Shown piece after piece: positions 3,540 through 18,004 of a DNA stretch of 22,375 bases (positions are counted from its first letter, which is position 1; the number at the start of each line of letters is the position of its first letter). The position numbers were made by a program, and so were the translations under genes. The stretch is from positions 1-22,375 of IMG/VR virus record IMGVR_UViG_3300032134_000022; one strand, given 5' to 3'. The DNA is from a virus. The notes under the pieces are model-generated. The model saw nothing but the letters and a program-made list of their open reading frames with translations, was not told the DNA's origin and searched no databases.

Positions 3540-6122
3540 ATGGCAGATATAGATAAAGGACTGTATGCAGCTCCAGAAGGCATAGAAGAAATAGCTGAAA
3601 ATGAAGAAGCTATTGAAATAGAAATAGAAGACCCAGAAAAAGTTACTATTGGTATTGGTGATAGTGAGATTGTTATTGATCCAGATAGAATGGATGATGA
3701 TGAGTTTTCTGAAAACCTAGCTGAAGAACTAGATGAACAATATTTAGCTGAACTATCCTCAGATTTACTTGAAGATTTCTCTAATGATATAAACTCTAGA
3801 AAAGACTGGCTTGAAACATACGTTGATGGCTTAGAACTACTAGGACTTAAAATAGAAGAAAGGTCCGAACCATGGGAAGGCGCATGTGCTGTCTATCACC
3901 CACTACTCTCCGAAGCACTCGTTAAATTCCAAGCAGAAACAATGATGGAAACCTTTCCAGCTGCAGGCCCTGTGAAGACTTCTATTATTGGAAAAGAAAC
4001 ACCTGAGTGTTTAGAATCAGCAGCACGAGTACAAGAGAATATGAATTATCAACTCATGGATAAAATGCCAGAGTATCGACCTGAACATGAGAGAATGTTA
4101 TGGGGACTAGGTTTAGCAGGTAATGCATTTAAGAAAGTTTATTATGATCCAGCATTAGAACGTCAAGTGTCATTGTTTGTACCAGCTGAAGATATGGTTG
4201 TACCTTATGGTGCTTCTAACTTAGAAACAGCAGAGCGAATTACTCATGTAATGCGTAAAACAAAACAAGAAATTCATAACTTGCAAGAAATAGGTTTTTA
4301 TAAAGATATAGATTTAGGTGAAGCAGATTATGACTTAGATGAAGTAGAGAAAAAAATTGCAGAACAGATGGGTTTTGATGCTACTAATGATGATAGATAT
4401 AAAATACTAGAGATGAATGTTAACCTTGACTTAGAAGGTTATGAAGACAAAGATGGAAATAGAAAAACAGGAATAGCATTACCTTACGTTGTTACTATTG
4501 ATAAGGGCACTACAGAGATTTTAGCAATTAGACGTAATTGGAATCAAGATGACAGTATGAAAAAACGCCGTGAACATTTTGTTCACTATGGTTATATACC
4601 AGGGTTTGGATTTTACTGCTTTGGATTAATACATTTGATTGGTGGCTTTTCAAAATCAGGCACAATGTTATTAAGACAGTTAGTAGACGCGGGTACATTA
4701 TCTAATCTCCCAGGTGGATTTAAAGCAAGAGGCTTACGTATTAAAGGTGATGATACACCAATTGGACCGGCAGAGTGGAGAGATGTTGATGCACCGTCTG
4801 GAACTATCCGTGATAACTTAATGCCACTACCATATAAAGAGCCAAGTCAAGTGCTTGCTGCTTTAATGGATAAAATTATTGATGAAGGTAGACGCTTTGC
4901 TTCTGCTGCAGATATGAAAGTATCTGATATGTCAGCTAACTCTCCAGTAGGTTCTACACTTGCAATACTAGAACGAACACTCAAAGTAATGTCGGCAGTT
5001 AATGCTCGTATCTATTACTCAATGAAGAAAGAGTTTGGATTACTTAAAACATTAATTAAAGACTACACAGATCCAAACTATCAATATGATCCTGCATCAG
5101 GAACACCCGGCGCTAAACAAGCTGACTACGATAAAGTTAATCTTATTCCTGTTGCTGACCCAAACGCTGCAACTATGGCACAGAAAGTTGTGCAGTATCA
5201 AGCAGTTATGCAAATGGCTCAACAGAATCCAGATATATATGACTTACCAGAACTTAACAGACAGATGCTAGACGTACTTGGTGTAAAGAACGCAGAGAAA
5301 CTCATTCCTAATAAAGATGATATTAAACAGTTAGGTCCTGTAACAGAAAATATGAATATTATTAATGGTAAGCCAGTAAAAGCGTTTCTTGACCAAGATC
5401 ATGAAGCTCATATTGCAGTACATATGGCATTTACTGATGATCCTTTAATTAGAAAGCTTGTGGGACAAAGTACAAAAGCAGGAATGATACAAGCTGCTAT
5501 GGAAGCTCATATTGCAGAACACGTTGCTTTTCAATATAGATTAGAAATAGAAAGAAAACTAGGTGTACCTCTTCCACCAATGGATGAACCACTACCAGTA
5601 GATATTGAAAACGAAGTTGCTAGATTAACAGCTGAAGCTGCACCAAAAGTTTTAGGAGACAGTAGTCTAAAAGCGTCTGAAGAAGAAAGACAACAACAAG
5701 CTCAAGACCCTGTATTACAAATGCAACAAGCAGAGCTTCAAATTAAACAAGAAGAAGCCAAGACTAAAGCCCAGAAAGTGATGGCTGATATTCAACTTGA
5801 TATAGCTAAACTTGAACTTGATAAACAGAAAGCAACCGTAGAAGTACAGAAAGATGTAATGCTTGCACAAACCAAAATCAAGTCTACTGAATCTATAGCA
5901 GGAGCTAAAATTGGAGCTGAAGCTGAAATGCAACAGAAAGACATAACAACTAAAGAAGTTATAGAAGGCGCTAAATTAGGAGCACAAGCAATTAACAAAG
6001 CAAAAGATATTGCTTTACGCTCAGAAGAATCTAGGTTACGTAACGAGACTATTGCACATACGCAAAAGTTAAGAGACAGAACCGAGATAAAAGAAACTAA
6101 AGATGAGGACAATACTAACTAA
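3540..6122 (+). CDS. Portal protein, P22-like, with long coiled-coil C-terminus
   Basis: The product is 860 residues, long for a portal. It would form the dodecameric vertex ring through which DNA enters and to which the tail attaches. After an acidic, probably disordered N-terminus (1-80) comes a region rich in portal-like helices, with an RKDWLETYVDGLELLGLKIE stretch (about 87-106) and PWEGACAVYHPLL (about 111-123) as in P22-type head-tail connecting proteins. About 715-850 is a long Gln/Lys/Glu/Ala-rich coiled coil (QQQAQDPVLQMQQAELQIKQ), which would match the helical barrel of P22-type portals. The AAGGA site at 3529-3533 is 6 nt from the ATG. It follows terL by 12 nt and is followed after 14 nt by the next gene. 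Confidence 0.85.
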   Translation: MADIDKGLYAAPEGIEEIAENEEAIEIEIEDPEKVTIGIGDSEIVIDPDRMDDDEFSENLAEELDEQYLAELSSDLLEDFSNDINSRKDWLETYVDGLELLGLKIEERSEPWEGACAVYHPLLSEALVKFQAETMMETFPAAGPVKTSIIGKETPECLESAARVQENMNYQLMDKMPEYRPEHERMLWGLGLAGNAFKKVYYDPALERQVSLFVPAEDMVVPYGASNLETAERITHVMRKTKQEIHNLQEIGFYKDIDLGEADYDLDEVEKKIAEQMGFDATNDDRYKILEMNVNLDLEGYEDKDGNRKTGIALPYVVTIDKGTTEILAIRRNWNQDDSMKKRREHFVHYGYIPGFGFYCFGLIHLIGGFSKSGTMLLRQLVDAGTLSNLPGGFKARGLRIKGDDTPIGPAEWRDVDAPSGTIRDNLMPLPYKEPSQVLAALMDKIIDEGRRFASAADMKVSDMSANSPVGSTLAILERTLKVMSAVNARIYYSMKKEFGLLKTLIKDYTDPNYQYDPASGTPGAKQADYDKVNLIPVADPNAATMAQKVVQYQAVMQMAQQNPDIYDLPELNRQMLDVLGVKNAEKLIPNKDDIKQLGPVTENMNIINGKPVKAFLDQDHEAHIAVHMAFTDDPLIRKLVGQSTKAGMIQAAMEAHIAEHVAFQYRLEIERKLGVPLPPMDEPLPVDIENEVARLTAEAAPKVLGDSSLKASEEERQQQAQDPVLQMQQAELQIKQEEAKTKAQKVMADIQLDIAKLELDKQKATVEVQKDVMLAQTKIKSTESIAGAKIGAEAEMQQKDITTKEVIEGAKLGAQAINKAKDIALRSEESRLRNETIAHTQKLRDRTEIKETKDEDNTN

Positions 6123-8961: not shown

Positions 8962-9891
8962 ATGGCAATTTCAAGAGCCCAGCTCCTTAAGGAGCTATTA
9001 CCAGGACTTAACGCGTTATTCGGTTTAGAATATGCACGTTATGGGGAAGAACATAAAGAGATTTACGAAACTGAATCTTCAGATCGTTCTTTCGAAGAAG
9101 AAACAAAACTAGCTGGCTTTGCAGCCGCACCTCTTAAATCTGAGGGAGCAGCTATTGCGTATGACAACGCACAAGAAGCTTTTACAGCTAGATACAACCA
9201 CGTAACAATTGCTTTAGGTTTCAGTTTAACTGAAGAAGCAGTTGAAGATAATCTATATGATAGTCTTTCAGCTCGTTATACTAAAGCTCTTGCTCGTTCA
9301 ATGGCAAATACTAAGCAAGTTCGTGCAGCTAACGTTTTAAACAATGGCTTTAACGGTGCTTTCTTAGGTGGTGACAATCGTTCACTGTTTGGTACAAACG
9401 CTGCAGCAGCAGTTACTAATCACCCGTTGGTGAGTGGTGGTACTAACAGTAATACACAAGCGACACCAACAGATCTTAACGAAACAGCATTAGAAAACGC
9501 AGTGATTCAAATCGCAGCATGGACTGATGAAAGAGGTCTATTGATTGCAGCTAAACCACGTAAGTTGGTTATTCCACCAGCTCTTCAATTCGTTGCTACT
9601 CGTTTGCTTGACACACAACTTCGTGTATCTACAGCAGATAACGACATCAATGCATTAAGAACTAACGGTGCAATACCAGAAGGTTATACAGTAAACCACT
9701 ATCTAACTGATGGTGATGCTTACTTCTTAACTACAGATGTGCCTAACGGCATGAAGCACTTTGAAAGAACTGCTTTAACAACATCTATGGATGGAGATTT
9801 TGATACAGGCAATGTTCGATACAAAGCCCGTGAAAGATATTCATTTGGTTGGTCAGATCCACTAGGTATGTGGGGTTCACCAGGTGCATAA
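8962..9891 (+). CDS. Major capsid protein, HK97-like fold
   Basis: This 309-residue protein is the likely shell subunit. Characteristic features are the N-terminal helix region, an SSDRSFEEETKLAGFAAAPL segment (39-58) resembling the N-arm/E-loop area of HK97-like coats, YNHVTIALGFSLTEEAVEDN (about 78-97), the LARSMANTKQVRAANVLNNG helix (about 110-129, spine helix), and the ARERYSFGWSDPLGMWGSPG C-terminus (289-308). It is preceded by a strong AAGGAG site and followed by a terminator, which fits a highly expressed gene. No maturation protease is seen nearby. Confidence 0.9.
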   Translation: MAISRAQLLKELLPGLNALFGLEYARYGEEHKEIYETESSDRSFEEETKLAGFAAAPLKSEGAAIAYDNAQEAFTARYNHVTIALGFSLTEEAVEDNLYDSLSARYTKALARSMANTKQVRAANVLNNGFNGAFLGGDNRSLFGTNAAAAVTNHPLVSGGTNSNTQATPTDLNETALENAVIQIAAWTDERGLLIAAKPRKLVIPPALQFVATRLLDTQLRVSTADNDINALRTNGAIPEGYTVNHYLTDGDAYFLTTDVPNGMKHFERTALTTSMDGDFDTGNVRYKARERYSFGWSDPLGMWGSPGA

Positions 9892-9915
9892 GTAGTTTTA
9901 CTTAGCACTACCTCT

Positions 9916-9950
9916 GAAAAGCCTGGCTCCTCTCTGCTGGGCTTTTCTTT
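9916..9950 (+). terminator. Terminator after the capsid gene
   Basis: GAAAAGCCTGGC (9916-9927) pairs with GCTGGGCTTTTC (9936-9947), a 12-bp stem with two G-U pairs and an 8-nt loop, followed by TTT. It lies 24 nt after the capsid stop codon. It would end the capsid transcript or reduce read-through into the pqqA unit. Confidence 0.85.
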
Positions 9951-9970
9951 ATCTAACACTCATGAATATC

Positions 9971-10002
9971 TTTATAGCATAACTCTATATGGTATATATA
10001 AT
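9971..10002 (+). promoter_or_regulatory. Promoter of the pqqA unit
   Basis: Two overlapping -10 candidates lie here: a consensus TATAAT (9997-10002), and TATATA (9993-9998) with an extended TGG in front. TTTATA (9971-9976) is 16 bp from the latter and may be its -35. The predicted start near 10005-10009 leaves a leader of about 40 nt that contains the small hairpin TCAGC-AAT-GCTGA (10010-10022). Confidence 0.5.
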
Positions 10003-10046
10003 TCTTCTATCAGCAATGCTGAAATTTAAAATAAAGGAGAAATATT

Positions 10047-10118
10047 ATGTGGACTAAACCAGCTGCTACAGAAATGAGATTCGGTTTTGAAGTAACAATG
10101 TACGTAATGAACAAGTAA
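10047..10118 (+). CDS. pqqA: PqqA, PQQ precursor peptide (23 aa), as an independent cargo gene
   Basis: This 23-codon gene encodes a peptide starting MWTKPAATEMRFG and continuing with FEVTMYVMNK. The MW-x-KPA start, the R-x-G-x-E-V-T-x-Y core and the 23-residue length match the family. PqqA is the peptide from which pyrroloquinoline quinone is made. PqqE, with PqqD as peptide chaperone, crosslinks its Glu and Tyr, and other enzymes excise and oxidise them. Both reactive residues are present at the family positions, Glu15 and Tyr19. An AAAGGAGA site (10033-10040) gives ideal spacing to the ATG. The gene has its own -10 region and its own terminator, and sits between two structural transcription units, the organisation of a moron. 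No pqqB, C, D or E is in the window, so a host pathway would be needed. The type resembles the 23-residue gamma- and betaproteobacterial form. Confidence 0.93.
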   Translation: MWTKPAATEMRFGFEVTMYVMNK

Positions 10119-10134
10119 TTTTTTGTTTTAAACT

Positions 10135-10156
10135 AAGGGGCTCCGGTCCCTTTTTT
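10135..10156 (+). terminator. Terminator of the pqqA unit
   Basis: AAGGGGC (10135-10141) pairs with GTCCCTT (10146-10152) around a TCCG tetraloop, a 7-bp stem with one G-U pair. It runs directly into a T-run ending at 10156. It lies 16 nt after the pqqA stop codon and is a classical strong intrinsic terminator. Confidence 0.9.
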
Positions 10157-10157
10157 A

Positions 10158-10186
10158 TTGTGCAAAAGCACTAAATAGAGTATCAT
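10158..10186 (+). promoter_or_regulatory. Promoter restarting the structural operon
   Basis: TTGTGC (10158-10163) and TATCAT (10181-10186) are separated by 17 bp, immediately after the pqqA terminator. Transcription would start near 10193 and run into a structured leader and the virion gene at 10274. A promoter is needed here because the preceding terminator is strong. Confidence 0.5.
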
Positions 10187-10193
10187 TAATTAT

Positions 10194-10250
10194 CTGGGAA
10201 CATCCAGCTTATCAGACTGCCCCAGCAGACGCATACACGACGGATAAGCT
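10194..10250 (+). promoter_or_regulatory. Structured RNA leader upstream of the 10274 gene
   Basis: A perfect 8-bp inverted repeat, AGCTTATC (10206-10213) and GATAAGCT (10243-10250), closes a 29-nt loop holding a 4-bp hairpin CTGC/GCAG (10217-10220 and 10225-10228) and a repeated CAGAC (10213-10217, 10226-10230). An alternative stem, CTGG/CCAG (10194-10197 and 10204-10207), shares bases with the large stem, so two mutually exclusive folds are possible. There is no T-run. A translational operator, a stability element or a protein-binding leader is possible. I cannot match it to a known riboswitch. Confidence 0.5.
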
Positions 10251-10273
10251 TAACTTTGTATGGAGAAATAATC

Positions 10274-10861
10274 ATGGCAAAAACAACCTTTTCGGGACCA
10301 ATTCAATCGCTTGGTGGCTTTGTAGGCTCAGGCGTCAACAATGTAGTTACAATGGCTGCAGGTACCACAGCTTTAACTGTTCTTCCTGTCGCAGCTTCAC
10401 CTGATGGCGTAACACCCGCTGTTACTGCTTCACCAGGGCACGCAGGTAAAACACTTATAGTATCAGATGCTACTTTTGTACTAAACTTACCAATTATTAA
10501 TGCAACTACACCCGATGATACAACAAACCCTAACCAATTAAACAATACAGGTATGGAGTTTGAAATCTTTTTTAATGCAGATATGACAGGTGGTAATACA
10601 GTAACATTAAATACTGGACAAGCTACTGATGCTTTTTATGGTTCAGCTATGTATGTAGATGATGGTGGAGGGGCTCAAGAAACTTTCCCTGCTGTCGCAG
10701 CTACTACAATGGTAATCGACGCAACTACTAGAGCAGGTGAGTATGGCTCATTAATTAGATGTAAAGCAATTACAGGTGCTGGAGCTAATGGAGTATGGTT
10801 TGTAGAAGCAATACTTATCAACCCAGATGTTGCTGCACCAGCAGTGACACCATTCGCTTAA
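10274..10861 (+). CDS. Virion structural protein, 195 aa
   Basis: The start is placed at the ATG at 10274 because a GGAGAA (10262-10267) precedes it with good spacing. The longer reading from a TTG at 10256 would swallow that ribosome site. The protein begins MAKTTFSGPIQSLGGFVGSG and is Gly/Thr/Ala/Val-rich with alternating hydrophobics, predicted all-beta. A FFNADMTGGNTVTLNTGQ segment and a GVWFVEAILINPD near the end look like a beta-sandwich. It probably decorates the head or belongs to the tail. Its own promoter and structured leader suggest high, separately controlled expression. Confidence 0.75.
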   Translation: MAKTTFSGPIQSLGGFVGSGVNNVVTMAAGTTALTVLPVAASPDGVTPAVTASPGHAGKTLIVSDATFVLNLPIINATTPDDTTNPNQLNNTGMEFEIFFNADMTGGNTVTLNTGQATDAFYGSAMYVDDGGGAQETFPAVAATTMVIDATTRAGEYGSLIRCKAITGAGANGVWFVEAILINPDVAAPAVTPFA

Positions 10862-16576: not shown

Positions 16577-18004
16577 ATGACAGGATTTTCGTCGCTTATA
16601 GCGGATGCACCAGAAGTAACAGTAGATAAAGTAAGACCATTAGAAAAAGATTTATATAAGATGATGTGGGATAAACCAGAGTATAGACAAGTTGCTCCTG
16701 GCGAACAAATAGCCCATGAATTTTTAAAGCAGGCTAAACCTAAACAAGGGGCAACAGTTTTAGATTTAGGTTGTGGTACAGGACGTGGGGGATTAAACCT
16801 AGCGTTCTTTGGTAATATGGATGTGACTATGGTTGACTTTGCAGATAACTGCTTAGATAAAGATATAGTCCCAATGTTAGAAACACAGAAGCATGCGTTG
16901 CGATTTGTAGAAGCTGATTTGTCTCAACCTCTACCTGTTCAAGCGGCTTATGGTTTTTGTACTGATGTGATGGAGCATATAAGACCTCATCACGTTGATA
17001 AGGTTATAGAGAATTGTTTAGCTGCGTGTCAGCATGTGTTCTTTCAAATATCTACTGTTGATGATATTTGTGGTGTTTTAGTAGGACATAAACTACATTT
17101 GAGTGTGCACCCATATGAGTGGTGGCTTAAAAAACTTAAAGACCATAAATGTGTAATACATTGGTCTCAACAGACAGATAACTCTTGTTTGTTTTATGTA
17201 AGTAATTGGGCAACAGGAGAAGAAGTAGTTGATGCGGGTACTGTAAATACAACTGATGAAGAGATAAAGAAAAACGTAGAGCACAATATAAAACAGGATT
17301 ATTTACAAGTAGAGCCCCATCCGACTAACGAGATTGAAGTAATGATTGTAGGGGGAGGACCATCCTTACCACAACATATAGAAAAAATAAAGCAATTAAG
17401 AGCAAATGGTGTTAAACTTATAACTATTAATAACGCTTATAATTGGTGTTTAGATAATGGTTTAACTCCTTCTGCTATGGTCATGGTAGATGCAAGAAAG
17501 TTTAATGCGAGGTTTACAAAACCTGTAGTAGAGGAATGTAAATACTTTATAGCTTCACAATGTAACCCTAGTGTATTTGAGGGATTGCCAAAAGATAGAA
17601 CTTATCTGTGGCATACGCAAGCAGACTTATTAAAAGATATACTAGATGAGCAATATAAAACATGGTGGTCAGTTCCAGGAGGATCGACTGTATTGTTAAG
17701 AGCTATACCATTGTTTAGAATGTTAGGATTTAAAAGATTTCATTTATTTGGGTGTGACTCCTGTTTAAGTGAAGATGATATGCATCACGCATACGAACAA
17801 GAAGAAAATGATGGACAGTTAGTTATGCCCGTAAACGTGAGCGGAAAAGTATTTAACTGTAACCCTTGGATGGTATCGCAAGCCCAAGAGTTTATTGACC
17901 TAATTAAAATGTTAGGTGATGAAATTGAGTTAGCAATCTATGGTGGGTTATTACATCATATTTTAGAATCCGGCGCGTCATACGCCGATATTAAGGAGAT
18001 TTAA
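16577..18004 (+). CDS. Fusion of a SAM methyltransferase and a DUF115/MptE-like domain
   Basis: This 475-residue protein has two parts. Residues 1-215 form a class I methyltransferase. VLDLGCGTG (61-69) is the SAM-binding glycine loop, Asp87 in MVDFAD the ribose-binding acid, and CTDVMEHIRP (128-137) the motif-IV region. Residues 250-475 look like the DUF115/MptE-like fold: VMIVGGGPSL (255-264), NGLTPSAMVMVDAR (294-307) and GGSTVLLRAIPLFRMLGFKR (368-387) followed by an FGCDS motif. That family includes 6-hydroxymethylpterin pyrophosphokinase and Maf-type flagellin glycosyltransferases. Each domain is known, but in a phage late operon the target is unclear. It may modify a glycan, a fibre, or host surface sugars. 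The neighbours are virion genes. Confidence 0.75.
   Translation: MTGFSSLIADAPEVTVDKVRPLEKDLYKMMWDKPEYRQVAPGEQIAHEFLKQAKPKQGATVLDLGCGTGRGGLNLAFFGNMDVTMVDFADNCLDKDIVPMLETQKHALRFVEADLSQPLPVQAAYGFCTDVMEHIRPHHVDKVIENCLAACQHVFFQISTVDDICGVLVGHKLHLSVHPYEWWLKKLKDHKCVIHWSQQTDNSCLFYVSNWATGEEVVDAGTVNTTDEEIKKNVEHNIKQDYLQVEPHPTNEIEVMIVGGGPSLPQHIEKIKQLRANGVKLITINNAYNWCLDNGLTPSAMVMVDARKFNARFTKPVVEECKYFIASQCNPSVFEGLPKDRTYLWHTQADLLKDILDEQYKTWWSVPGGSTVLLRAIPLFRMLGFKRFHLFGCDSCLSEDDMHHAYEQEENDGQLVMPVNVSGKVFNCNPWMVSQAQEFIDLIKMLGDEIELAIYGGLLHHILESGASYADIKEI

Follow-up and report, generated by a model that had tools for sequence, protein, structure and literature searches.

A stand-alone pqqA cassette in an HTVC023P-type phage and the spread of the PQQ precursor gene among phages of methylotrophic bacteria

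The pqqA cassette and its insertion site

The stretch of DNA analysed here (the window) is a 22,375-base IMG/VR virus record that carries genes for the terminase large subunit, the portal and the capsid. Its capsid protein and that of Pelagibacter phage HTVC023P share 63% identity. Between the capsid gene and an ORF starting at 10274 lies pqqA, which encodes the 23-residue precursor peptide of PQQ. The features of this region are the following:

8962..9891, + strand: major capsid protein gene, HTVC023P-type (Phage_capsid_4, 4.5e-11; PHROG major head, 6e-17)
9916..9947, + strand: terminator hairpin closing the capsid gene (12-pair stem; 9892-9955 folds at -21.2 kcal/mol, z -4.7)
9959..9965, + strand: conserved CTCATGA block, exactly 38 bases upstream of TATAAT in 6 of the 6 nearest carriers of the window's form of the cassette, the window included
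9997..10002, + strand: TATAAT, probable -10 element of the cassette promoter (conserved at -50 to -53 in six carriers, the window counted among them; -35 consensus absent)
10010..10022, + strand: short 5'-leader hairpin TCAGC-AAT-GCTGA, seen in the sequence (L292 and L293 keep the stem with a changed loop)
10035..10039, + strand: ribosome-binding site AGGAG (7 bases between its end and the ATG)
10047..10118, + strand: pqqA, 23-residue PQQ precursor peptide, stop included (ORF and profile matches)
10135..10156, + strand: pqqA terminator, AAGGGGCTCCGGTCCCTT and a T run (7-pair stem, -11.3 kcal/mol, z -2.9)

The 23-codon ATG-to-stop frame at 10047-10118 translates into MWTKPAATEMRFGFEVTMYVMNK. 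This peptide matched Pfam PF08042 PqqA (E 6.4e-11, 42.4 bits, cut-off 21.1) and the NCBIfam equivalog model TIGR02107 (E 1.8e-10, 40.4 bits, cut-off 20), covering both models over their full length with scores about twice the cut-offs. Glu15 and Tyr19, the ExxxY motif of the PqqE crosslink, are present at the positions at which a sequence-only reading of this DNA had placed them when it proposed a 23-codon PqqA, a proposal borne out by the two profile matches. A degenerate PqqA pattern matched once in the window and in none of 100 shuffles. The peptide is identical to the PqqA of Methylophilaceae, including the OM43 strains KB13 and LSUCC0665, and the ribosome-site spacer AAGGAGAAATATT-ATG is common to the window pqqA and OM43 host pqqA genes. 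At the level of profiles and motif, the ORF is confirmed as a genuine, full-length PqqA. No family of PHROGs, the phage family library, and no solved structure matched the peptide.

The sequence-only reading had also attributed a -10 region, an ideal ribosome site and a strong terminator to the gene. The terminator at 10135-10156 is indeed strong, the ribosome site is good and TATAAT is conserved; no sigma-70 -35 box was found upstream of pqqA, TATAAT was unlisted by the promoter scan, and this part of the claim is unproven. It is likely that pqqA has its own promoter, which is given here as probable only, since the -35 box is absent. An Rfam search at the cassette found no element, weak matches at E 0.4-8 (snoR124, freshwater-2 and others) being judged chance.

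For a comparison of presence and absence, 80 loci were fetched solely by capsid similarity. A pqqA gene was found 3' of the capsid gene in L287, L288, L291, L292, L293, L152, L296 and L297, with capsid identities of 98 to 83%. Two close relatives with a capsid 91% identical, L289 and L290, possess the site but not the cassette: a single terminator is followed there by the conserved leader that precedes the next gene, and the sequence after this terminator can be aligned by eye with that following the pqqA terminator in the window. The proposed moron architecture agrees with this arrangement, a stand-alone cassette between two terminators that is lacking in sister loci. As L289, L290 and L294 have no pqqA at the capsid site, the gene is not essential everywhere; it was also absent, within the DNA covered, from the remaining 68 capsid-selected loci (L298-L365), 57 of which reach at least 600 bases past the capsid gene. 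The location given earlier, between the capsid gene and the next structural gene, was right as to the capsid gene; the ORF at 10274 was recognised as structural by none of the profile libraries (Pfam, PHROGs). Different small ORFs occupy the space between the terminators at this site (9892-10190 in the window) in L288, L291 and L294, with or without pqqA, and on account of these other inserts the site is regarded as a hotspot for small stand-alone genes.

Distribution of pqqA among phages

A tblastn search with PqqA over 50,697 annotated phage records returned 12 hits, nine of them in isolates of Methylophilales phages (Venkman, P19250A, MEP301, MEP401, MEP402 and four Melnitz) and one in a spring-water phage. 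The other two, filed as 'Acinetobacter phage MD-2021a' (CAKLQF020000010.1 and CAKLQH020000055.1), were rejected: CAKLQF020000010.1, which contains ppk and pqqABCDE, is of bacterial origin, and CAKLQH020000055.1 is probably a misfiled bacterial contig of the same kind. Every Methylophilales phage isolate genome that the collection yielded, nine in number, encodes pqqA, mostly unannotated. In the phage records opened, the gene is either unannotated or lies beneath a gene call on the opposite strand, and its having been missed in cultured methylophages is explained by its size, below the usual ORF cut-offs, or by such a wrong call. Hypothetical proteins are annotated opposite pqqA in MW202481.1 (2067-2195) and MZ577097.1 (76100-76195), probably as wrong calls that mask the real gene.

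The SAR11-infecting relatives in the same collection, namely HTVC008M (a relative of Melnitz) and HTVC023P and HTVC027P (relatives of the window phage), gave no match. Further Methylophilales phages in the NCBI taxonomy (MEP431-434 and others) gave none either; they may lie outside the collection or be without pqqA.

PqqA relatives occur in at least 589 IMG/VR stretches, and the search for the peptide in phage genomes that had been advised together with the sequence-only reading showed, with these and the nine Methylophilales isolates, that it is not rare. With capsid, terminase and portal genes on the same record in the window, and with copies in cultured phage genomes, pqqA is a host-type metabolic gene in real phage genomes. 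The papers on these isolates assign them to distinct viral groups (PMC10580990). Grouping of the viral loci by one shared ORF was discarded, as it merged nearly all of them; two shared ORFs gave 23 groups, nine with more than one member, these counts being rough.

A second type of PqqA, also of 23 residues, was found in L032 (at about position 5944) and L026 (at about position 2243). In L032, which has a related capsid gene, pqqA lies at a different site, directly behind a basic-protein gene. Since both the type of peptide and the site differ, the L032 gene was apparently gained separately, perhaps from a different host that makes PQQ.

Among 177 distinct viral copies of pqqA, 170 have a ribosome-site-like motif and 79 are followed at the 3' side by a terminator-like hairpin, against 3 in shuffled sequence, while 55 are oriented opposite to both neighbours. 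These counts indicate that pqqA travels as an independent unit.

Candidate hosts, a proposed precursor supply and alternative readings

The best 79 bacterial loci matching the phage peptides belong to Methylophilaceae, OM43 included, or to compatible unclassified bins, and the window peptide was matched in full. The nearest host pqqA copy seen differs from that of the window at 4 of 72 bases. From these similarities we infer that the window phage very probably infects a Methylophilaceae bacterium. Each of ten candidate-host Methylophilaceae genomes has two to six pqqA genes and one pqqE above cut-off; several host pqqA copies stand apart from pqqE, as do all three of OM43 strain KB13. A PQQ alcohol dehydrogenase was detected in the four candidate-host genomes in which it was sought, with one PQQ dehydrogenase each above cut-off in the OM43 strains KB13 and LSUCC0665 and many matches in Methylophilus methylotrophus. 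The PQQ-making host with PQQ-dependent dehydrogenases that had been supposed is thus found among the methylotrophs of this family, in ten genomes as to pqqE and in four as to the dehydrogenase. It was reported that Methylophilaceae have 3-12 copies of pqqA, the other pqq genes being typically single-copy (PMC4109929), which fits a demand for the precursor. A PqqA query of the L032 type matched in only 46 of 369 genomes from the same bacterial class, so that making PQQ seems to be confined to a minority there; for this reason the match between phages and PQQ-making hosts is informative.

Linkage of pqqA to pqqBCDE, common among bacteria though no requirement, was not encountered in the phages, with PqqE above cut-off in none of the 46 pqqA-bearing phage records; the window covers only 22 kb of its phage, which may have pqqBCDE elsewhere. 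One of these 46 records (L053/G021, 72 kb) encodes a PQQ alcohol dehydrogenase. The absence of PqqE implies that the phage would bring the substrate and depend on the enzymes of the host. One PqqA is used per molecule of PQQ, and the Pqq enzymes are reusable catalysts; as the peptide is consumed while the enzymes are reused, PqqA is all that the phage would need. Based on this, a model is proposed in which a phage transcript would yield the 23-residue peptide during infection, host PqqD and PqqE would take it up and join Glu15 to Tyr19, and the rest of the host Pqq enzymes would complete PQQ. With host genes shut off, PqqA would be exhausted first, hence the carriage of that part alone, and the PQQ produced would keep methanol dehydrogenase, the main entry of carbon and energy in the host, supplied until lysis. 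Binding and crosslinking of the phage peptide by PqqD and PqqE are expected because its sequence is identical to that of the host peptide. We infer expression, processing by host enzymes and a benefit to the phage. Altogether, it is probable that the window holds a stand-alone pqqA moron of an HTVC023P-type phage of Methylophilaceae, whose product, matured by host Pqq enzymes, would sustain PQQ for methanol dehydrogenase until the cell lyses. Somewhat less firmly, though still with the balance in its favour, it can be proposed that several unrelated groups of phages infecting PQQ-dependent methylotrophs repeatedly took up the PQQ precursor gene alone, near-universally and mostly unannotated, the virus supplying the peptide substrate to be modified and the host enzymes finishing the cofactor, with precursor supply limiting during infection.

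The evolution of the codons bears on these proposals. In nine copies selected by the capsid gene, pN/pS was 0.11 and the variable columns numbered 4, 2 and 15 at the first, second and third codon positions; for the core, Glu9 to Tyr19, the numbers were 1, 0 and 9. A scan of IMG/VR with a pattern on residues 1 to 13 only, which provides a test independent of residues 14-23, showed Glu15, Thr17, Tyr19 and the stop at codon 24 to be invariant in 117 of 117 distinct phage copies. These two sets were preferred to a pattern-selected one with a pN/pS of 0.15, which is biased since the peptide itself was selected. The excess of third-position changes, together with the invariance of Glu15, Tyr19 and the stop, shows, in terms of codon changes, purifying selection on the translated peptide with the crosslinking residues kept. 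A chance-acquired host fragment left unused would be easy to come by, the gene being small and the host copies numerous and in several cases stand-alone; such a neutral passenger is nevertheless highly improbable in view of the strong purifying selection on the peptide against highly diverged synonymous sites and of the recurrence of pqqA at more than one site and across several groups of phages. That the transcript works as a small RNA or an operator, with the reading frame incidental, might be thought of for a tiny monocistron with a leader hairpin and a terminator, and the leaders of 173 copies fold with a mean z of -0.9, only slightly better than shuffled sequence. The distribution of changes by codon position (15 at the third vs 4 and 2), the stop kept in every copy of the scan and the match to curated PqqA profiles speak against it so strongly that we give it hardly any credence.

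The remaining alternatives accept the peptide and differ as to its use. The phage peptide could titrate PqqD and PqqE as a decoy, lowering host PQQ and diverting metabolism from methanol oxidation, for instance by competition, if a small copy of the substrate were expressed at a high level; this had been raised in the sequence-only reading, and no result of the analysis favours it. The peptide lacks nothing that a substrate needs, its sequence is often that of the host peptide, and an additional true substrate yields product and does not block the pathway, whereas Tyr19 would be dispensable in a decoy. These considerations make a decoy very unlikely, and supply fits the evidence better, given the invariance of the crosslinked residues and the many host-identical phage peptides. 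Less easily dismissed, though still unlikely, is that the peptide feeds PQQ mainly for another PQQ dehydrogenase or for redox protection. PQQ has several client enzymes, the many dehydrogenase matches in Methylophilus methylotrophus being a case in point, and a different type of PqqA is present in phages of unknown hosts. Against this, the OM43 hosts KB13 and LSUCC0665 each have a single dehydrogenase above cut-off, no OM43 transcript is more abundant than that of xoxF (PMC5120137), and the pqqA-bearing record L053/G021 encodes a PQQ alcohol dehydrogenase as well. Supply of the precursor for host methanol dehydrogenase is accordingly the reading retained here. The presence of the gene in all nine isolates found suggests that phages sustain the methanol metabolism of the host during infection, and the evidence points to the PQQ precursor as a host bottleneck to which phages of abundant methanol-consuming bacteria repeatedly answer with a single 23-codon gene.

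Relation to earlier reports and neighbouring features

In the sequence-only reading no established phage system built on PqqA was known. This has to be corrected, as phage PqqA was reported in 2020 from Lake Baikal: the phage population VP_266, T4-like and predicted to infect Methylophilaceae, encodes PqqA and a methanol dehydrogenase (Coutinho 2020; PMC7678222). VP_266 shares with the window a phage-encoded PqqA, the predicted host family and a proposed aid to methanol oxidation, and differs from it in being T4-like and in bringing the dehydrogenase, whereas the window has a cassette in an HTVC023P-type phage and 45 of the 46 pqqA-bearing records have no dehydrogenase. L053 (G021) resembles VP_266 in carrying pqqA together with a PQQ alcohol dehydrogenase. 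In the same work P19250A was stated to be without genes for PqqA and methanol dehydrogenase; contrary to this, tblastn showed that P19250A carries an unannotated pqqA. In the papers describing Venkman, Melnitz, MEP301 and MEP401/402 phage PqqA is unmentioned. A 2026 study of reservoir sediments lists viral pqqA, pqqE and pqqD among phosphorus-cycling AMGs (PMC13188868); in the portion of that report considered here, the viral gene, as in the window, is encoded by a virus, and it is read as serving phosphate solubilisation, without a methylotroph link or a precursor-only pattern. As far as can be judged from the searched literature, in which few subscription journals are represented, the new elements are how widely the trait extends, its restriction to the precursor, its repeated gain and, in HTVC023P-type phages, the cassette.

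Compared with the Methylophilaceae gene (PF08042/TIGR02107), the phage copy retains the identical 23-residue peptide, the OM43 ribosome-site spacer and the stand-alone arrangement with a terminator, away from pqqE, and differs in its position in the structural region between two terminators and in its diverged third codon positions. A general parallel is offered by cyanophage psbA. There too the phage carries just one host component, the one consumed most rapidly in the principal energy pathway; psbA, however, encodes a photosystem protein, whereas pqqA encodes a peptide substrate that is turned into a cofactor.

The cultured pairs Venkman/H5P1 and P19250A/IMCC19250 allow direct testing of the model, although PQQ is an ingredient of a published OM43 medium (PMC9004378) and might hide an effect of the phage gene. 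In addition, the presence of pqqA may help to recognise, in metagenomes, phages whose methylotrophic hosts make PQQ, and these observations suggest that peptide-sized genes are undercounted in surveys of phage metabolic genes.

Downstream of the cassette, a conserved leader RNA with three interlocking helices was noticed at 10194-10273, upstream of the ORF at 10274. Its helices in the window are CTGGG/CCCAG, AGCTTATC/GATAAGCT and CATACA/TGTATG, the last strand adjoining the ribosome site. It is also present in L287-L294, L308, L315, L316, L319, L324, L326, L329, L333, L336, L350-L355 and others. In a comparison of the window with 21 relatives, four covarying versions of the first helix occur, always fully paired, and many versions of the second and third, with pairing kept in nearly all; the second helix was not found in L316 and L321, and the register of the third is off in L341. 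The motifs ACTGMC and CAGAC are conserved. Rfam gave no match at 10194-10273, and the element is a candidate for a new cis-regulatory RNA of HTVC023P-type phages. Farther downstream, in the tail region of the window, a single ORF at 16577-18004 has an N-terminal half resembling a methyltransferase and a C-terminal half resembling MptE.
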